This document shows positions 5,346-16,889 of a stretch of DNA of 64,000 nucleotides, in pieces; position 1 is the stretch's first letter, and each line of letters begins with the position of its first letter. The notes below the pieces were generated by a model. That model saw only the letters and a list, made by a program, of their open reading frames with translations. It did no database searches and was not told where the DNA came from. Location: NCBI GenBank assembly GCA_945898275.1, contig CAMDHZ010000001.1, positions 124,001 to 188,000 on the forward strand, read 5' to 3'. The position numbers and the translations under genes are program-made. The stretch is from Chitinophaga pinensis (lineage in GTDB: Bacteria; Bacteroidota; Bacteroidia; UKL13-3).

Positions 5346-7382
5346 ATGAAAAAACAATTACTTGCTATCGCAGCTATGTTTGTAGGACTAAGCGCATTTG
5401 CGCAAGACTACTATTACAGAAAACTTATTGGCACAACCTCTGAGTACGTTATGAACCAAACTGGCGCAACCACTCTAGTAAATGGTCCAGCAACTAGTAC
5501 CCTTAGTTCAGAATCCACACTTCCATTTGCTTGGAATTTTTATGGACAACCTGTTACAAAATTTAAAGCCAGTACAGCAGGATATATTACATTTGATGTA
5601 ACTCAAACAAATAGTGTACAAACCAACACCTCTTTGAGCAATTCCACAGCTCCTAACAATTCAATTTTTGCATTTTGGGATGACACTAAGTTAGCACCTA
5701 TCACTCAAGGAACAACAACTTTCCCTTCAGATATCTGCACTTGGACTTATGGAACTGCACCAAACCGTGTTTATGTAATCCAATGGAGATTAGTTCAAAC
5801 TGCAGCCAGCGCTTCACCAACTGATATTACTTATTATGCAATAAGACTTTACGAAAATAGCAACTTTGACATAGTTCATAATTATGGATTTGGCACATTT
5901 ACTGCAAGTGCTGGAACTAAAAATGCAGATGGAACTTCTTCCAAAGAAATTAAGGGTACACCGAACATGAACTTTGGTGGAAAAGACGGTCAATATGACG
6001 CAGCTTTGAGTGCTGTTTACAAATTCTTTTATGGTATCCAACCAAATAATGATCCAGAGTTGGCTAGCATAGAGTTGCCTAAATATACTCCAAAAAACAC
6101 CAATATGGCAATAAAAGGTGTAGTTGCAAACTATGGCAAACAAAGCTTAAGTTCTTTCAAATTAAAGTACACAGTGGATGGTGGAGCTGAAGTAATCATG
6201 CAATTAAGTGGTTTAAACATTGATGCAGACGGAGGAACTTATGCATTTACACACAATGTACCTTACTCAAGCCCAACCATTGGAGCTAAGAACATTGTTG
6301 TTAGTATTTCTGATCCTAACGCTGGTGTTGACGGTGATTTAACTAACAATAGCAAAAGTGGTTCATTTACAATCGTAAATTCAACTGTACCTCGTAAAGT
6401 ATTACATGAAATATTTACTTCATCTACTTGTCCTCCTTGTAAGCCAGGTAATGAAAACTTAAAAGCAGTTTTAGATTTTAAAGTAGGCGAATGGACAACC
6501 ATTAAATATCAAACTAACTTCCCTGGAACAGGAGACCCTTATTATACCTCTGAAGTTGGAACACGTTTTAGTTATTATGGTGCAAACTTTGCTCCTTGGT
6601 TAACCATTGATGGTGCAAACAGTTGGGGTGCTACTTCTGCAAATGCAAATTCTTACACAGAAGCTATGTTTGATGCTAAAAAAGCTGTGCCTTCATTAGC
6701 TGCAATTACTGCAAAATACACTATCGTCGGCAAAACTGTAACTGTTAGTGGTAATGTAACGCCGGTTCAAAGTTTCGCTAATTCAAGCATGAGACTTCGT
6801 ATTGCTGTGGTAGAAAAAGTAACAAGCAAAAATGTTAAAAACAATGGAGAATCTGAATTCTATGCAGTAATGAAGAAGATGCTTCCAAATGCAACTGGTA
6901 CTACTGTTAGTTTAGCTGCTGGTACTGCAGTTCCTTACACACAATCTTTCACTTTCCCTGGAGAGTATCGTTTGCCAACCAATGGTCAAACAGCTAATAT
7001 TATCAACTTAGCAACTGAACACTCAGTTGAATCTTTTGATAACTTATATGCTATCGTTTTCTTACAAGATGATGCAGACAAAACTGTTTGGCAAAGTGAA
7101 ACCACTACTCCATTAGGACCAGTAAGTGTAACTGAAATCAATGAGTTAGGTCTTAACATTTATCCTAATCCAAGCAAAGGAAACATCAATGTTACTTTTG
7201 GTGGAAATAGCAGCAATGGATCAGTTCGTATCGTTGATATGAATGGAAAAGAAGTTCTTGCTCAAACTATCAACAGCTTAAATGGCGAAATCAATTGCGA
7301 AAACTTAAGCAATGGCCTTTACTTTGTTGAATTAACTGTTGCTGGCAAAACTGCTACTAAGAAGTTAAACATTATTCGTTAA
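5346..7382 (+). CDS. Secreted Omp28-like protein with CPPC motif and T9SS sorting domain
   Basis: The 678-residue product starts with a clear signal peptide ending in LSAFAQ. The first 230 residues form a beta-rich domain with YAIRLYE and FWDDTK elements. The middle resembles the Omp28 family and carries EIFTSSTCPPCKPGNE near residue 361, a thioredoxin-like CxxC. The C-terminus has a type IX secretion sorting domain beginning at IYPNPSKGNINV near residue 604 and ending KKLNIIR. The protein is probably exported through T9SS and held on or released from the cell surface. The CxxC suggests redox or disulfide chemistry, but that activity is inferred. A strong terminator follows. Confidence 0.85.
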   Translation: MKKQLLAIAAMFVGLSAFAQDYYYRKLIGTTSEYVMNQTGATTLVNGPATSTLSSESTLPFAWNFYGQPVTKFKASTAGYITFDVTQTNSVQTNTSLSNSTAPNNSIFAFWDDTKLAPITQGTTTFPSDICTWTYGTAPNRVYVIQWRLVQTAASASPTDITYYAIRLYENSNFDIVHNYGFGTFTASAGTKNADGTSSKEIKGTPNMNFGGKDGQYDAALSAVYKFFYGIQPNNDPELASIELPKYTPKNTNMAIKGVVANYGKQSLSSFKLKYTVDGGAEVIMQLSGLNIDADGGTYAFTHNVPYSSPTIGAKNIVVSISDPNAGVDGDLTNNSKSGSFTIVNSTVPRKVLHEIFTSSTCPPCKPGNENLKAVLDFKVGEWTTIKYQTNFPGTGDPYYTSEVGTRFSYYGANFAPWLTIDGANSWGATSANANSYTEAMFDAKKAVPSLAAITAKYTIVGKTVTVSGNVTPVQSFANSSMRLRIAVVEKVTSKNVKNNGESEFYAVMKKMLPNATGTTVSLAAGTAVPYTQSFTFPGEYRLPTNGQTANIINLATEHSVESFDNLYAIVFLQDDADKTVWQSETTTPLGPVSVTEINELGLNIYPNPSKGNINVTFGGNSSNGSVRIVDMNGKEVLAQTINSLNGEINCENLSNGLYFVELTVAGKTATKKLNIIR

Positions 7383-7402
7383 TCGAATTTAATCTTATAA
7401 AG

Positions 7403-7434
7403 AAGCCCTTCAGAAATTCTGAAGGGCTTTTTTT
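7403..7434 (+). terminator. Rho-independent terminator after the first Omp28-like gene
   Basis: A perfect inverted repeat (AAGCCCTTCAG to CTGAAGGGCTT, stem of at least 11 bp) is followed by a run of seven or more T. It separates the two tandem paralogues, so they are probably transcribed separately. Confidence 0.92.
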
Positions 7435-7458
7435 ATGCCTATTTATTATCTTTAAACC

Positions 7459-9522
7459 ATGAAAATATTAAAGCTAGTAGTTTGTTTCCTATTTGTTCTC
7501 GCAAGCCATCTTGCCACAGCACAGTATTACTTAGTAACTAGCAAAGGAATTGCCGAACCTATCAACTTGGCGCAAAGCAATGAAAAAACTATCCTAAACG
7601 ATAAAAGTCAAAATGCTTACAGTGAATTCATCCCACTAAGTTTTCCTTTTACCTTTTACGGCCAAAGCATTAACGGCTTTAGAGCTTACTCAGATGGAAG
7701 ACTAGCATTGGATACTTTTCCTTTAACCCCTTCAGATACCAATTATTCCTTATCAAATTCACTTGCACCCAGTAATTGTGTTTACGCTTTTTGGGATCAA
7801 ACCGAATTAAAAAACTTCAGCTTAGGAGGCAAAACTTATGCTTCTGACATTCAAACTTGGCAAGAAAACCTTCATGGAAAAAAGGTTCAAACCATCTTAT
7901 GGCGATTGATTAGACCTAAACCCAGTAGCAGCTTAAACGCCTATGTTTACTACGCGGTTCGACTTTATGAAACAAACGAAATTGAGATCATACATTTATA
8001 TGGTACCGGAAACTTCACCGCCACGGTTGGAATAAAAGGAAAGGAAAACCAATCATATTTAGAAGTAAATGGCTCGCCAATACGCAATTATGGCGGAACT
8101 AACCTTGCCTATAACCCTGATTCTGTCCTAGAATTTAAATTTATTCCAGGCACCCAAAAACAAAATAACCTTGCCTTAACTTCCCTTGAAATTGCACCCT
8201 ACTTAGAAAATGGCAAACTAGTTACCCTAAAAGGCCAATTGATAAATTTAGGAAGTGATTCGCTTAAACAATTTAAGGCACAACTGAAAATTGGTCCTAC
8301 TCAAACTGAAATGCTACCAAACACTTTGGTTAATCTAGCTGTTGGCGAAAAGTATAATTTTGAATTTGCCCTTAGTGAATGGAGCTCAGATTCGGGTTAT
8401 CAGCTTTTTCAATTGGTTCTGTTTGAACCAAACCAGCAAGTAGATGAAGACAGTAGCAACAATTCTTTAGGTGTGGAAGTATTGGTTTATACCTCAAATT
8501 ATCCTCAAATGGTTTTGCATGAAGTGTTTTCATCTTCTTCAACAGGCCAAGGAAAAATAGCTAAGGAAGCACTTGCTCAAACGCTCAACAACTTTCTGGG
8601 GCAATGGATTGTGCTTACCCACCCCATGAATTTCCCAAATTTTGGGGATCCTTATTTCATGCAATTTAGTGCCGACCTCTTTCTCAAATACCAATTAAAT
8701 ATGTCTCCAGCCTTGGTGGTAAATGGAAACAAAAACTGGGGAGAAGAAATTCCTAATCTTAGTCTTTACAAACCAAGTTATTTCCAAACGTTTGCTGGCA
8801 AAAAGGCTTTGGTTCAAATAGATTGCAAACTTACCAGAAACGTACAATCGTTTGCAGTTAACACCCAAATTACCCCAACCAATGGTTTAAAAAGCAAGCA
8901 ACTTTACTTGCATGTGGCCTTGGTAGAGAAGGTCACTTATAAAAACACAAGAAACAATGGCGAAACCGAATTTTACCACATTGTGAAGGCCTTATTGCCA
9001 AACTCAACGGGAACTGCAGTTCAATTGCAGGAAGGAAAAAGTGTGCAGATGTTAGACAGCTTTACCTTTAAAGGAAACTATCGCCTGCCTGCGAGTGGCG
9101 ACCCAAATTTGATCATCAATCCACTGATTGAACACTCAGTAGAAAACTTTGAAAACATATACGCAGTTGCTTATTTGCAGGAGGAGGATAGCAAATTGGT
9201 TTTACAAAGCAGTAGTTCGGAGGTCTTGTTACCTTTAAGTCAAGCCGAACTTATATCATCTGAAATTCTGGTTTATCCAAACCCAGCCAATGAAAATATT
9301 CAAATCAGTTTACCAGAGGGAATACAGCAAGCACAAATTAGCATTAGAGACGCTAAAGGGGCATTGGTTCAACCCGAAACCTTATACAAACCCAAAACCA
9401 AATTGAGGTTACCTCCAATGGCTGAGGGCATATTTATCGTGGAGATAAAGACAGAAAAAGGTATTTATTGGAAAAAGCTTGCCTCGACTCCGCTCGGCAA
9501 CCAGTTGGCTCCGCTAAATTAA
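7459..9522 (+). CDS. Tandem paralogue of the Omp28-like protein, CxxC lost
   Basis: The 687-residue product has the same layout as its upstream neighbour: signal peptide (to LATAQ), N-terminal beta domain with AVRLYE and FWDQTE, Omp28-like middle, and a T9SS-type C-terminal domain with VYPNPANENIQI. Shared blocks include VALVEKVTYKNTRNNGETEFY and FKGNYRLP. At the place of TCPPC it reads SSSSTGQGK, so both cysteines are gone. The sorting domain does not end at the usual basic KKL strand but runs on into a GC-rich extension of about 13 residues (ASTPLGNQLAPLN), which looks like an intruding repeat. The copy may be a binding rather than a redox protein. Confidence 0.82.
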   Translation: MKILKLVVCFLFVLASHLATAQYYLVTSKGIAEPINLAQSNEKTILNDKSQNAYSEFIPLSFPFTFYGQSINGFRAYSDGRLALDTFPLTPSDTNYSLSNSLAPSNCVYAFWDQTELKNFSLGGKTYASDIQTWQENLHGKKVQTILWRLIRPKPSSSLNAYVYYAVRLYETNEIEIIHLYGTGNFTATVGIKGKENQSYLEVNGSPIRNYGGTNLAYNPDSVLEFKFIPGTQKQNNLALTSLEIAPYLENGKLVTLKGQLINLGSDSLKQFKAQLKIGPTQTEMLPNTLVNLAVGEKYNFEFALSEWSSDSGYQLFQLVLFEPNQQVDEDSSNNSLGVEVLVYTSNYPQMVLHEVFSSSSTGQGKIAKEALAQTLNNFLGQWIVLTHPMNFPNFGDPYFMQFSADLFLKYQLNMSPALVVNGNKNWGEEIPNLSLYKPSYFQTFAGKKALVQIDCKLTRNVQSFAVNTQITPTNGLKSKQLYLHVALVEKVTYKNTRNNGETEFYHIVKALLPNSTGTAVQLQEGKSVQMLDSFTFKGNYRLPASGDPNLIINPLIEHSVENFENIYAVAYLQEEDSKLVLQSSSSEVLLPLSQAELISSEILVYPNPANENIQISLPEGIQQAQISIRDAKGALVQPETLYKPKTKLRLPPMAEGIFIVEIKTEKGIYWKKLASTPLGNQLAPLN
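7884..7893 (+). repeat. Dispersed motif core GGTTCAAACC
   Basis: Core copy in the second Omp28-like gene, without the GAAA extension. Confidence 0.5.
9366..9379 (+). repeat. Dispersed motif, variant GGTTCAACCCGAAA
   Basis: Inside the CxxC-less Omp28 paralogue, encoding V-Q-P-E-T; it is followed by CC. Confidence 0.8.
9481..9516 (+). repeat. GC-rich short repeat forming the extreme C-terminus of the preceding gene
   Basis: The stretch containing CCTCGACTCCGCTCGG is much more GC-rich than its surroundings. It resembles the short CTTCGACTCCGCTCAG-like dispersed repeats found between genes in many Bacteroidota. I see only this one copy in the window, so the assignment rests on resemblance to known repeats. 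Confidence 0.35.
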
Positions 9523-9891: not shown

Positions 9892-10728
9892 ATGAAAAAA
9901 CATCTGCTCAATTGTTTGTTTTTAAAAGGTTTGCTCTTAAGCCAAATACTAGCAGCCCAAACGCCTATTAAACTTAAACTTATTGGAGCATTTTGGGATA
10001 GCACAGGTTATAGTTTCGATACCTTATACTTTGGATTTCATAAAGATGGCGGACTAGGTGTACAGGCAGGATTAGATGTGCTAGACACTAATTCAAAACT
10101 TAATTGGGGAACTTATGATACTAGTACACCTAACTTAAGGTATAAAACCAATATCAGAGAATTTGAACCATATACCTACACATCCTTTCAAATCTATGCT
10201 CGTAATAATTTAGTTTATATAAAATGGGATACAACAGAGTATCAGCCATCATTTTATAATTATGATTTTGTTAGATTAAGTGTGACATTAGAATGCAAGA
10301 ATGCTTTTTTTGAGTTTCCAGAATTTTACGGTCACGCTATTTCAGGTAGAACAGAATCATGGAAAGAAACCAATGGAGTTAATCCTGTAGATTCTGTGAG
10401 GATATTTATTATTGGATTTTCTCCACAATTATGGGTTAACTTGGGGGTAAGAGATTCTATACCTACTAGTATAAATAACACACAGCTTCAACAAAAATTA
10501 GAAATACTCCATTCTAATGATGCTAATCTTTTGCATGTGAAAAACCCTCTTGAGTTACCTTTAAAAATAGATTTAATTAATCACCTAGGGCAGAGTCTGG
10601 CAAAATTGCCTATTACTACTAGCCTAAGCCACATAACTATACCCTTAGAAGGCCTTTGCAGTGGGATTTATTATTTAAGCATTACAAACGATAATAATTA
10701 TACCTTAAAAAAAATAATCATACCTTAA
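9892..10728 (+). CDS. Secreted protein with T9SS-like C-terminal domain, function unknown
   Basis: The 278-residue product starts with a signal peptide (MKKHLLNCLFLKGLLLSQILAAQ). The body is beta-rich with no recognised enzymatic motif; it has several WDTTEYQ/YDTSTPNLR-like segments. The last 80 residues have the shape of a T9SS sorting domain (KIDLINHLGQSLAKL ... GIYYLSITNDNNYTLKKIIIP), although the usual YPNP opening is replaced by VKNPLELP. It precedes the metalloprotease by 22 bases and is probably co-transcribed, which suggests a shared secretion programme. Confidence 0.7.
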   Translation: MKKHLLNCLFLKGLLLSQILAAQTPIKLKLIGAFWDSTGYSFDTLYFGFHKDGGLGVQAGLDVLDTNSKLNWGTYDTSTPNLRYKTNIREFEPYTYTSFQIYARNNLVYIKWDTTEYQPSFYNYDFVRLSVTLECKNAFFEFPEFYGHAISGRTESWKETNGVNPVDSVRIFIIGFSPQLWVNLGVRDSIPTSINNTQLQQKLEILHSNDANLLHVKNPLELPLKIDLINHLGQSLAKLPITTSLSHITIPLEGLCSGIYYLSITNDNNYTLKKIIIP

Positions 10729-10750: not shown

Positions 10751-12460
10751 ATGAAACAATTAACACTTTTTTCAGTACAGCTTCTTTCATCTTTATTGTT
10801 GTTTTCACAATCTAATTTTCATTGCGATTACGATCCTATGCAACAACAAACAGAGAATTTTTTTACACAAAACAAAGGAAATAATCTTTGCATGGCTAAT
10901 GGAAATGCTCACACCCCAAAAGGTGTATTAAACACCATGATGGTATTTGTTACATTCACAGAAGACCAAAACAATACAAACGCAGAAAACAATATATACT
11001 TTTGGCCTAAAAATAGCGTTCCAAATTATGCCACTAATGTTTTAAATCTTGGACCTAATCCTGGTTCTGTTTCGAGTAAGTCTAATAATTTAACAGGATA
11101 CTATGAAACTATGTCTGGATACAATGGTACTAATGGTTTTTCTGTTACTGGAAAAGTTTTTCATGTTACAATATCAAAACAATTTAACTATGACAATAAT
11201 AAATCTAAACTAGAAAATTTGGAAAATTTCGAAAACACACTTTGCCAAAGATCAATAAATGCCTTGCAAACACAATATCCTAATGAGGATTGGTCTCAAT
11301 ATGACAAAAGAGATAACATTAATAGGTCTGGAAACAGGGGTACTAGAACTTTCGAAACTGATAACAGCGCTTTATACAGTGATGGAGTAATAGATTACTT
11401 TAGTATTCACTTTAGGTTACTACCATCTGATTTAAATATTTATAGAACAGGACAAGGTGCTATTAGGCGAAATGGACGCTCTTACTTCGCGTATATGAAA
11501 TCAATCTTAGGGTTACCAGACCTAACGAAAAACAACCAGAATTTTTGGATTGATTGTGGACATACACTTTTTGACCCTTTTGATTTTCCAAAATTTTTTC
11601 CATACTTTACTCATGAGTTTGGGCATGGTGTTTTTGGTTTAGCACACCACATGGGAGCTAATGATGTTACTGGATTTTACTTTAATTCATACTATGGTTG
11701 GGGTATGATGGCAGATGTTTCTAAATTTTTCAACACAAGCAATGCTTGGGAAAATTGGACTTATGGATGGTCGAACCCACAGATTGCAACACCCAATATT
11801 CAAACTTATAGTATAAAAGATTTTGTTACCACTAAGGATGCCATTAAAATTCCAATTCCCAATACAAGTCAGGCCCTTTGGATTGAAAACCATCAATTAA
11901 TAAATTTTTTTGATAATAAAAATACTACGAATATTGGTAACATGACCCCTGGATTATACATGTATATTTCTGACTATGAAAGTCCAGAAAACTGCGTTTT
12001 GGTGCCTTCCTCCGCAAGATATTATGAGGATATTCCATATTCTAGAATGCTTTTTTGGGCCAATCGACTAAAGGTACTCAGTAAAGAAGGAAATAAAGAT
12101 TACATATATACAGCAACAGGAACAAATACATTTAACTTTACAACCATAGCTGATAATCCAATTTCTGGCGCTCATTCTGCGCAAAGTTTAAGAATTGATA
12201 TGAATAAAGATGCTGTTATAGACTATAAATCAGCAACTGCAAATGATGGTAGCAACGAACACACCAGAGTTTATAATTTAAACAATTCAAATGTGGCAAA
12301 TTGGTCTGGCAATTCAAGTTCAGCATTTGGTGTTGGCGATGAACTATCCATTAGTGGCCTTTTACCAATTCTAAATTATCCGTTCATTGATAATGAGCAG
12401 GATAGATTAACTGTTATAGAAAACAACAACACTCCCAATAATCCAATTCAAACCATTTGA
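10751..12460 (+). CDS. M6-like secreted metalloprotease, N-terminal part of an apparently frameshifted gene
   Basis: The 569-residue product has a signal peptide (to LLLFSQ) and a zinc-protease site HEFGHGVFGLAHH beginning at His288. A probable Met-turn, YGWGMMAD, follows. Downstream blocks WTYGW, SIKDFVTT and ALWIENHQ match the M6 (immune inhibitor A-like) peptidases of Bacteroidota. The zinc motif is HExxHxxxGxxH, one residue longer than the metzincin HExxHxxGxxH. The protein lacks the T9SS sorting domain expected for such a protease and stops at TGA just where the next frame, shifted by +1, continues with a plausible domain. I therefore regard it as the front part of a roughly 1,470-residue protein. 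A genuine short form remains possible. Confidence 0.75.
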   Translation: MKQLTLFSVQLLSSLLLFSQSNFHCDYDPMQQQTENFFTQNKGNNLCMANGNAHTPKGVLNTMMVFVTFTEDQNNTNAENNIYFWPKNSVPNYATNVLNLGPNPGSVSSKSNNLTGYYETMSGYNGTNGFSVTGKVFHVTISKQFNYDNNKSKLENLENFENTLCQRSINALQTQYPNEDWSQYDKRDNINRSGNRGTRTFETDNSALYSDGVIDYFSIHFRLLPSDLNIYRTGQGAIRRNGRSYFAYMKSILGLPDLTKNNQNFWIDCGHTLFDPFDFPKFFPYFTHEFGHGVFGLAHHMGANDVTGFYFNSYYGWGMMADVSKFFNTSNAWENWTYGWSNPQIATPNIQTYSIKDFVTTKDAIKIPIPNTSQALWIENHQLINFFDNKNTTNIGNMTPGLYMYISDYESPENCVLVPSSARYYEDIPYSRMLFWANRLKVLSKEGNKDYIYTATGTNTFNFTTIADNPISGAHSAQSLRIDMNKDAVIDYKSATANDGSNEHTRVYNLNNSNVANWSGNSSSAFGVGDELSISGLLPILNYPFIDNEQDRLTVIENNNTPNNPIQTI

Positions 12461-12470
12461 ATTAAATGGC

Positions 12471-15161
12471 TTGGTTATAAATATTTTACATTTTAATAGT
12501 ACCACCAAAGAATATACGATTTTTGTTAGCTACACCGATAATACTCTTTCTAATAGCAAAGAATGGGCTGGAAACATAGAAATACCTAATATATTTTCAC
12601 AAGTTAATGTGCCAGATTTATCTATAAAATCTGGAAAAACACTTACCATAAAAAGAAGTGGAACTGCCAATACTCAAAGAAATTCTCAAGCTTTGAACAT
12701 AACAAATTTCACATGGCCAAGTAAGTTAATTTGCAAGAATGGCGCTTACTTAAGTTTGGAAAGTGGTTCAAATGTTATTATAAAAGATACTTCAACCTTT
12801 GAGCTTGAGTCAAATGCCACTTTAGAAATTCAAAACGGCAGCACATTCAATGTAAAAGATTACAGTTCATTTAAGATACATCCAAATGCGAAAATCATTG
12901 TAAAAGAAAATGGGAAGTTGTTAATAGAAGAATCAAGTACACTTACCTACCTTAATAGTGGTCAGATAATTTTGGAAGGACCAAATTCAATTTTGGAATT
13001 TAAAAGTGGAGGTAAAATTTTAATAGGAGAAAATGCTACATTTAATTATTCTGGTAATGGGTTTATTAAAATAAATACTGATAATTCAATATATCCAATT
13101 TTCCGAGCTATTGGCCAAAATGCTAGGGTGAAAATTGTTACAAGTGGATTTAACTTCAATTCAAAGAAAATTTTAGAAATAACTGGAGGATCATATGTTT
13201 GTGACTACAATAAAGAAAATTCAAATGGTCTTTCAAATTTTGAGTTAAATGAGTTAAGTTTTCAAAATGGGCTTATTCAGCTTGACAGAAATACTGGAAT
13301 TGCGATATCTGGTAAGAACACAAAAACAGATTTAAGAAATTTGTTTATTAAGGCGAGAATTGAAAATACTGCAAATGAAAGACACTTCGGAATAGTTTTG
13401 AATGGTCAAAAAGGAAATTCAATTTACAAAGTTTCTATTAGAGATGGGGTAAATGGTATTACATCAAATAATTACTATGGTGGAAATAATTTAGACTTGT
13501 TGCAATACAATGCTTTTTCATGCGAAATAGGCATTCAAATTAATGGGGCAGGAGCAAGGATTCAAGATTGTAAAATAAATGACTGTAAAACTGCAATATT
13601 ATTGCAGGGGATGTATGGAAGCACAAGATTGTATCGAGGAGAAATTTTTAATTGTAGCGTTGGCGTTTTAGCAGTAAATTGTGGTTCTACAGTAATTGAA
13701 CTGTATCAACCAAATATTCACAATAATTTTAATGGAGTTTACGCATCAAATTCTTTGATAACTGGCAATTGCGGTAAAGTATTTAACAATGCGGCGGCTA
13801 ACATGGTAAACGGGAAATATGAAGGGGCAAACTTTCATTTAAATAATTTATCCAACCTTACCTTAGATCCAACCTTTAGGCCTGGGATTGGCAATGTAGA
13901 TTTGAGTAATGTGAGAGGTGTATCTGTAAGACTAGAAAAATCTGGAACAGGGCCATTAATTTCAAATTCTCAATCCAACTTAGAAACTGGATTAGATTAT
14001 TCGATTGTTGGTAATATAAACAGAAATTTAACTTCGATTCCACTAAATATTTTTAGTAAAATGAATTTTTGGAGATCGTCTTCAGGGACTTCTTTTTCTC
14101 CAGTGCATCTAATTGATTATAAGGTAATAAATTCAATCGCACCATTTAGCACAAATTTTGTTTATTACCAAGACCCAAATCCAATATCAAATTTTCAAAT
14201 TTGTGGAACAGGCTCTATAGGTTCTACAGGAGGCGATGATAGATTCAAAGGATTCTTATCTGCACCTATTAGCATTTTAGAAGGTGTATCAGATTTTCAA
14301 TTAAGTGACGGAAACAATGCTAAAAATTCTGTATTTGAAGGCTTTCAATTTGGATTTGACCTTTTTCCTAATTATGAATTAGCAATTAATTCTTTAATGA
14401 AAATTCTAAACCATCAGTTTACACAGGAACAATTTCAAAATTGGAAGGAACCTATTGTCGAAATCAATACCCAAATGATTGAATTTTTAAAAAATGGAAT
14501 TGAAGATAAGCGCCTTGAAAAAGACGCAAATTTCGAATTAATTAATAACATTATTACGCTTCAGAATAAGTTAATGACAGACTTTAGAGATGACAGCAGC
14601 CAATTTTCAGGATTTCAAATAAAAAAGGTGGAAGTTTTTAGGCTAATTGAAAACTATCAAGAGGCTATTCAAACTTTATCAGATATTGATTTGCAATTTT
14701 CTCCTAACTATGAGGGGCTAAAATCATCACTAACCTGTATGATAAACAATGAGGTTGCCTCAAAATCTAATTTTTCGGCTTTAATAGAAACAGGATATGG
14801 TCTGCATTGTTTTTCGGAAATTGACTATAATAATATGGTTCCTTTTGAAGATACTACTAATTATCAAGGTGTATTAAAAGATAGCTTAATTATCTTCACA
14901 GAATCTACCAATGATATAAATGTTTACCCAATTCCAACTAGTAGTTATATTACAATAGGTAGTCTTTCTCTAAAAGAATTCAATTGCGAAATTGAAATAT
15001 ATGATAATCAAGGTAAGTTAGTGAGGAAACAAAATGTTAATGTTGGCAAGAATTTAAGCAATCAAGTATTTTTAGGCGCTTTAGAATCAGGAATTTACCA
15101 AATTATAATTAAATATTCAACTAAACAGGAATTACATAAAATAGTAATAATCAAAGATTAG
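12471..15161 (+). CDS. Beta-helix repeat and T9SS sorting domain, C-terminal part of the split protease gene
   Basis: The frame opens at 12420 after an in-frame TAG; the first usable start is TTG at 12471. The 896-residue reading has no signal peptide. It begins LNGLVINILHFNSTTKEYTI, a beta-strand pattern that follows the catalytic domain in related M6 proteases. It then has rungs such as SNATLEIQNGSTFNV and GSNVIIKDTSTFEL (about 85-200), right-handed beta-helix regions to about 480, and a T9SS sorting domain opening at VYPIPTSSYITI and ending HKIVIIKD. A secreted protein with a sorting domain but no signal peptide is not expected to be exported alone, which supports joining it to the upstream frame. 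Confidence 0.72.
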   Translation: MVINILHFNSTTKEYTIFVSYTDNTLSNSKEWAGNIEIPNIFSQVNVPDLSIKSGKTLTIKRSGTANTQRNSQALNITNFTWPSKLICKNGAYLSLESGSNVIIKDTSTFELESNATLEIQNGSTFNVKDYSSFKIHPNAKIIVKENGKLLIEESSTLTYLNSGQIILEGPNSILEFKSGGKILIGENATFNYSGNGFIKINTDNSIYPIFRAIGQNARVKIVTSGFNFNSKKILEITGGSYVCDYNKENSNGLSNFELNELSFQNGLIQLDRNTGIAISGKNTKTDLRNLFIKARIENTANERHFGIVLNGQKGNSIYKVSIRDGVNGITSNNYYGGNNLDLLQYNAFSCEIGIQINGAGARIQDCKINDCKTAILLQGMYGSTRLYRGEIFNCSVGVLAVNCGSTVIELYQPNIHNNFNGVYASNSLITGNCGKVFNNAAANMVNGKYEGANFHLNNLSNLTLDPTFRPGIGNVDLSNVRGVSVRLEKSGTGPLISNSQSNLETGLDYSIVGNINRNLTSIPLNIFSKMNFWRSSSGTSFSPVHLIDYKVINSIAPFSTNFVYYQDPNPISNFQICGTGSIGSTGGDDRFKGFLSAPISILEGVSDFQLSDGNNAKNSVFEGFQFGFDLFPNYELAINSLMKILNHQFTQEQFQNWKEPIVEINTQMIEFLKNGIEDKRLEKDANFELINNIITLQNKLMTDFRDDSSQFSGFQIKKVEVFRLIENYQEAIQTLSDIDLQFSPNYEGLKSSLTCMINNEVASKSNFSALIETGYGLHCFSEIDYNNMVPFEDTTNYQGVLKDSLIIFTESTNDINVYPIPTSSYITIGSLSLKEFNCEIEIYDNQGKLVRKQNVNVGKNLSNQVFLGALESGIYQIIIKYSTKQELHKIVIIKD

Positions 15162-15494: not shown

Positions 15495-16889
15495 CTAAAT
15501 ATGCAAAGCCCTATTTGCCGTAGCAGCCAATGCTGCTTCCTTCACAGCTTCGGCGTAGGTGGGATGCGCATGACTCATTCTGGCGATGTCTTCTGCACTG
15601 GCTCTAAATTCCATGGCGGTAACAGCTTCAGCAATTAAATCGGCCACACGCGGCCCAATCATGTGCACGCCCAATACCTCGTCTGTTTCGGCATCGGCAA
15701 GTATTTTCACCAAACCGTCTATGTCCATGCTGGCTCTGGCGCGCCCTAGGGCGCGCATAGGAAATGACCCAACCTTGTACTTTTTACCATCCTTTTTCAG
15801 TTCTTCTTCTGTAGCGCCTACCCCTGCGACTTCTGGCCAAGTATACACCACACCCGGAATTAAATTATAGTTGATATGTGGCTTTTGTCCAGCCATGGTT
15901 TCTGCCACAAAAACGCCTTCTTCCTCTGCTTTGTGGGCTAACATGGCTCCTTTTACCACGTCGCCAATGGCGTAAATTCCTTTTACATTGGTTTCTAAGT
16001 GAGCATCTGTTTCTACCCTACCTCTTTCGTCTACTTTTATACCAACAGCTTCTAGGTTCAAACCAGCTGTATAGGCTTTTCTACCCACGCTAACTAGACA
16101 ATAATCGCCAGAGAAACTTACTTCTTCCCCCTTTTCGTTGTCTGCAATTACAGCAACTTCATTGCCATTTACCTTGGCCGATTTTACTTTATGGTTAAAG
16201 AAAAATTCAAAGCCAAGCTTTCTCAAACTGCGTTGCAATTCTTTGCCTAAGGTGGCATCCATGGTTGGAATAATGGCATTGGTATATTCAATCACAGAAA
16301 CCTTTGCACCTAAACGTGCATACACAGAACCTAATTCCAAACCAATTACGCCACCACCAATAATGATTAGATGCTTTGGGATTTCGGTCATATTTAAAGC
16401 CTCGGTAGAAGTAATGATTCTTTTCTTGTCCAATTCGATACCAGGCAACAAAGCCGGCTTAGAACCAGTGGCAATGATTACCTTGTCAGTTTCGATGGTT
16501 TGCTCGGTTTCTCCGCTTACTTTGATGGTATTTTTAGTTATAAAAGAACCAACACCTTTTAACACGTCAATTTTATTTTTCTTCATCAAATAATCGATGC
16601 CTTCGCAGGTTTGCTTAACCACGCCGTTTTTGCGCTCAATCATTTGGGTCAAGTTAATCTTCAAATCAGCCACATCAATACCATGCGTTTTAAAGTTATG
16701 GGCTGCATTATGGTAGTGTTCAGAACTATCTAACAAGGCTTTAGATGGAATACAACCCACGTTTAAGCAAGTACCACCAAGGGTATTATACTTCTCAATT
16801 AGAGCAGTTTTAAAACCTAACTGTGCGCAACGAATGGCTGCAACATAGCCACCAGGACCAGAACCAATAATGGTTACATCGTATTTCAT
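15495..16889 (-). CDS. lpdA: Dihydrolipoyl dehydrogenase (E3)
   Basis: This flavoprotein reoxidises dihydrolipoamide in the pyruvate, 2-oxoglutarate and glycine-cleavage complexes, producing NADH. The ATG at 16889 starts the FAD-binding fold directly (MKYDVTIIGSGPGGYVAA) and is preferred to the frame extended by ten residues. The redox disulfide is in GGTCLNVGCIPSK, an NAD-binding GGGVIGLELG follows, and GIYAIGDV and the His-Glu pair in HAHPTYAEAVKEA are all present. Length 464 residues is normal. The sucB gene lies 2 kb away on the same strand, separated by two glycosyltransferase genes, so they are not in one operon. Confidence 0.96.
   Translation of the reverse strand: MKYDVTIIGSGPGGYVAAIRCAQLGFKTALIEKYNTLGGTCLNVGCIPSKALLDSSEHYHNAAHNFKTHGIDVADLKINLTQMIERKNGVVKQTCEGIDYLMKKNKIDVLKGVGSFITKNTIKVSGETEQTIETDKVIIATGSKPALLPGIELDKKRIITSTEALNMTEIPKHLIIIGGGVIGLELGSVYARLGAKVSVIEYTNAIIPTMDATLGKELQRSLRKLGFEFFFNHKVKSAKVNGNEVAVIADNEKGEEVSFSGDYCLVSVGRKAYTAGLNLEAVGIKVDERGRVETDAHLETNVKGIYAIGDVVKGAMLAHKAEEEGVFVAETMAGQKPHINYNLIPGVVYTWPEVAGVGATEEELKKDGKKYKVGSFPMRALGRARASMDIDGLVKILADAETDEVLGVHMIGPRVADLIAEAVTAMEFRASAEDIARMSHAHPTYAEAVKEAALAATANRALHI
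16055..16064 (+). repeat. Dispersed motif core GGTTCAAACC
   Basis: Core copy antisense to lpdA, without the GAAA extension. Confidence 0.5.

Follow-up and report, generated by a model that had tools for sequence, protein, structure and literature searches.

A probably non-functional, frameshifted gene for a secreted M6-like protease in an uncultured Bacteroidota bacterium

The genome of an uncultured Bacteroidota bacterium (a draft of 106 contigs) carries a gene for a secreted M6-like protease that is split by a frameshift and is probably non-functional. It lies in a stretch of 64,000 nucleotides, hereafter the window. We consider it likely that this is a recent pseudogene, i.e., that a loss-of-function frameshift occurred in a dispensable gene of this type. 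This reading is favored because an intact homologue exists in another family (genome G092), a copy from the same genus (genome G017) reads through the position of the break, the segment just past the break is conserved, the genome has a T9SS, and other copies of the gene are also broken. An earlier note on this DNA had proposed one protease gene split by a frameshift, which the G092 and G017 copies bear out, and had listed a pseudogene among its possible causes. That option is now the best supported one, given the five-base lesion relative to G017 and the intact G092 gene.

The ancestral gene would have been a single one of about 1,470 codons, encoding a signal peptide, a catalytic module, a long solenoid repeat, and a T9SS sorting tag. 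Five bases near 12443-12452 would then have been lost, with replication slippage between short repeats as the most likely cause. The second half would thereby have moved out of frame, so that the predicted product now ends at residue 569. This truncated product is expected to reach the periplasm by its signal peptide and to stay there without the outer-membrane sorting tag. The 3' half, which has no signal peptide, is probably not usefully expressed.

Two reading frames and the break between them

As judged from sequence comparisons, the two frames of the locus are halves of one gene (Table 1). The first begins with an ATG, and its N-terminus is signal-peptide-like by a heuristic hydrophobicity rule; all signal-peptide calls given here were made with this simple rule and not with a trained predictor. 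A Pfam search found no sorting domain in this frame. The second is offset by +1 relative to the first, and its open run is far beyond chance, as the longest one in 500 first-order simulations had 160 codons. Seven codons among its first 200 could serve as starts, and none of them opens a signal-peptide-like sequence. Judging by its sequence, the repeat region may fold as a beta-helix. A genome scan for T9SS tags recovered the sorting domain at the same position. When tested as a T9SS type A cargo, the locus thus has the sorting domain, but its signal peptide sits in the other frame. This is the arrangement that the earlier note had read from the letters, with a signal peptide and a zinc site but no sorting domain in the first frame, and the reverse pair of signals in a second frame open from 12420.

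Table 1. Features of the protease locus in the window, and isolated T9SS tails found elsewhere in the same genome (G000)
Feature	Position	Strand	Evidence
Small protein of 278 aa with a T9SS tag, next upstream of the protease	9892..10728	+	Por_Secre_tail, E 1.6e-6
5' half with signal peptide and HEFGH-bearing M6-like catalytic domain; premature TGA end	10751..12460	+	ORF, 569 aa
3' half, +1 frame: last catalytic-module strands, long repeat region, T9SS sorting domain	12420..15161	+	913 open codons
Break: five bases missing relative to the continuous G017 frame	12443..12452	+	DNA alignment with L029 (G017)
Type A T9SS C-terminal sorting domain	14922..15155	+	PF18962 (Por_Secre_tail), 40.9 bits, E 2.5e-10, full profile
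Bare T9SS tails (loci L085, L090, L138)	G000 C43:3224-3448; C19 near 16143-16490; C8:62791-63000		

The break had been expected between about 12420 and 12460, and the alignment with G017 places it inside this range, the exact spot of the gap being ambiguous within the ten positions of Table 1. The gap also takes out residues that G017 has. Relative to G017 and to the intact G092 gene, it is a frame-disrupting lesion. No tandem repeat tract was found at the junction, the only repeats detected being two short ones of low score at 11213 and 14187. The codon before the TGA stop of the first frame is ATT, which allows no good +1 re-pairing. A second, intact allele was not found in the same genome.

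Homologues with long and short layouts

The earlier note had suggested a search for an intact homologue of about 1,470 residues, and G092 provides one of 1,448 residues in one continuous frame (L050:1617-5960, minus strand). Its parts follow each other as a signal peptide, recognized by sequence, a catalytic module, a long repeat region, and a T9SS tag (E 5.5e-12). Residues 24-517 align with the 5' half of the window gene and residues 534-1176 with the 3' half, the latter at about 25% identity over 693 aligned positions. The order of the parts, the length of about 1,450 residues, and a small T9SS-tagged gene directly upstream (of weak homology) are thus common to both, whereas the G092 gene is a single unbroken frame and identity is only about 25-31%. 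The copy in G017 (VEQB01000010.1) is 76% identical over the 5' half and 48% identical to residues 1-522 of the 3' half, and it passes the position of the break in a single frame. Together, the intact G092 frame and the read-through in G017 argue for one gene and not two. Two naturally separate genes were considered and rejected, as a secretion signal is absent from the 3' frame and none of the homologues was found in this arrangement.

Short homologues of 652-711 residues without a sorting domain occur in G037, G359, G379, G178, G264, and G146, which belong to one family, and in G075. In that family the untagged short form is the rule. The loci L003 and L051-L055 of one Bacteroidota family have a uniform short form of 685-711 residues that ends in a short solenoid without a recognized sorting domain. 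The short forms all run past the break of the window gene, through a segment LNG..I.I...W.G.I..P and a short solenoid. This segment lies just past the break and is present in all homologues, long and short; only the copy in G007 lacks its last part. The earlier note was therefore right that LNGLVINI... is what usually comes after the catalytic domain. As the segment is found even in the short forms, none of the natural forms seen is as short as the 569-residue product. This predicted product would be missing the catalytic module's end, the whole repeat region, and the tag.

The zinc site HEFGH occupies residues 288-292 of the 569-residue frame, and its H, E, and H are invariant across the aligned homologues, which also conserve a motif NAWE..GW that we take to be M6-like. 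The window protein itself has no direct match in Pfam or NCBIfam. Four homologues match the M6 domain of NCBIfam (TIGR03296) with 46-58 bits (E 1e-11 to 1e-15) against a curated cut-off of 110.8; hence, neither they nor the window protein exceed it, and the M6 label of the protease is indirectly supported. No solved structure matched the protease by sequence, and a structure prediction of the 5' half made from two sequences had a mean pLDDT of 30, too low to inform on the fold. Our literature search on M6 proteases with T9SS found nothing.

Gene decay in the genus and the T9SS context

The protease is present in only 3 of the 19 genomes of the genus, and the gene appears to be decaying elsewhere in the genus too. 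In G017, the 3' half has an in-frame TGA and TAA, followed by frame loss and missing sequence before a remnant of the tag, and the neighboring genes on the contig are open; the coverage given in the contig name is about 3.5x, and these stops could partly be errors. The G007 copy is split over two contig ends and ends early, without repeat region or tag. The genome G001 keeps the gene that precedes the protease (57% identical), with no protease after it. Since the lesions differ among the copies of the genus, they have independent origins. In G017, G007 and, with weak similarity, G092, the protease is immediately preceded by a homologue of the 278-residue T9SS-tagged protein, which makes this protein a conserved partner of the protease gene.

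Some results count against a pseudogene, namely the open halves, the intact catalytic residues, and the low pN/pS. Apart from the single break, neither half is interrupted and the catalytic residues are intact, hence decay would have hardly begun. The pN/pS relative to G017 is 0.18 for the catalytic half and 0.47 for the 3' half, with synonymous sites saturated. We read this as purifying selection in the past, which acted on the two halves alike but more strongly on the catalytic half.

The T9SS tag is required for the secretion of tagged substrates (PMC10202324). The genome encodes SprA, and about 105 of its proteins have a tag that scores over the cut-off. We surveyed about 80 other T9SS-tagged gene regions of this genome for splits, a set made up mostly of frames of up to about 1,000 codons. 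Most of these regions start with a clear or slightly weaker signal peptide in the same frame as the tag; several begin at a contig edge and hence could not be judged for a signal peptide. None has a split into two frames like that of the protease, which is unique in this set. On this survey, genome-wide frame damage is rejected. Away from contig edges, three regions have no signal-peptide start, and each of them is a bare tail (70-105 residues) that no front half adjoins (Table 1). These tails are probably remnants of lost cargo genes.

Other tagged or repeat-bearing genes were observed along the way. Two adjacent T9SS-tagged proteins at 5346-9522 of the window are alike in size and layout, both being weakly CARDB-like and one Omp28-like, and are possibly duplicates. 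The long repeat with a T9SS tag also occurs as a C-terminal module on varied fronts, one of them an alpha/beta hydrolase-like protein (L012). Further repeat regions are found in L011, L013, and L014, and the repeat frame of L013 comes right after a reprolysin-like HExxH frame. Within the same bacterial family, repeat-plus-tag modules related to that of the protease are found on other enzymes, e.g., on an alpha/beta hydrolase-like protein in G028.

Alternative explanations and comparison with known systems

The split might be an error of the consensus or assembly, in which case the gene would be continuous in the genome itself and would have lost its five bases only during assembly, e.g., from mixed strains. 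The draft state of the genome speaks for this, as does the fact that no other lesion interrupts the two halves, but a loss of five bases is atypical when compared with single-base homopolymer errors, no second allele was found in the genome, and elsewhere in the genus the gene is broken as well. The absence of comparable splits in the 80 other T9SS gene regions further indicates that the draft is not generally frame-damaged, and we regard such an error as unlikely. Secreted and surface proteins are the usual targets of phase switching, and a short repeat at the break might in principle gain or lose a unit, so that slipped-strand changes would toggle the protease or its export. Yet there is no tandem repeat tract at the break, the shift is absent from G017 and G092, and no other examined T9SS gene is split over two frames, which makes phase variation very improbable. 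The release factor 2 gene has a +1 shift with a first frame ending in TGA. The direction and the stop codon are the same here, and programmed frameshifting would give a small full-length tagged fraction and an untagged majority. However, the site is not conserved, as a single frame runs across the junction in both G017 and G092, the ATT before the stop offers no good re-pairing, and the shift equals a five-base loss that removes residues of G017; we give this explanation hardly any credence. The programmed and phase-variable shifts that the earlier note had left open have thus lost their ground, with no homologue having the shift.

The 569-residue product could also be a working untagged enzyme like its relatives of 652-711 residues. 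Untagged short forms are indeed the rule in one family and occur in G075, but all of them extend beyond the break, and the open state of the 3' half of the window gene suggests that it broke recently; a natural short protease is therefore highly doubtful. It is somewhat less improbable, while still far from likely, that the 3' half is lost again and again in this lineage under selection for a protease that is untagged and periplasm-retained or otherwise released, the different breaks in this genome, G017, and G007 then being adaptive truncations and not decay. The recent pseudogene remains our preferred reading: an unsplit, intact copy and separate breakages in related genomes mark the window gene as an ordinary decaying one. 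Automatic pipelines will annotate the locus as two genes, a protease that has no tag and a tagged protein that has no signal peptide, neither of which is a normal T9SS cargo. The importance of this case beyond annotation is small, and what it records is that a single secreted protease was lost repeatedly in the same genus.

With the M6 family (TIGR03296; PF05547, immune inhibitor A type), the window protein shares the HExxH site, NAWE..GW, and secretion, but it has no direct match to the family, and the long form adds a repeat region and a T9SS tag. The G092 homologue resembles T9SS type A cargo (PF18962 / TIGR04183) in having a signal peptide at one end and the tag at the other, whereas in the window gene the two signals are in different frames and no single product has both. 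The short homologues (e.g., in G037, G359, and G264) have the catalytic module of the window gene and the first part of the solenoid, but they have a natural end at 652-711 residues, beyond its break. The same M6-like catalytic module thus occurs either in a short layout that has no sorting tag or in a long layout, in which a solenoid and a T9SS tag follow.
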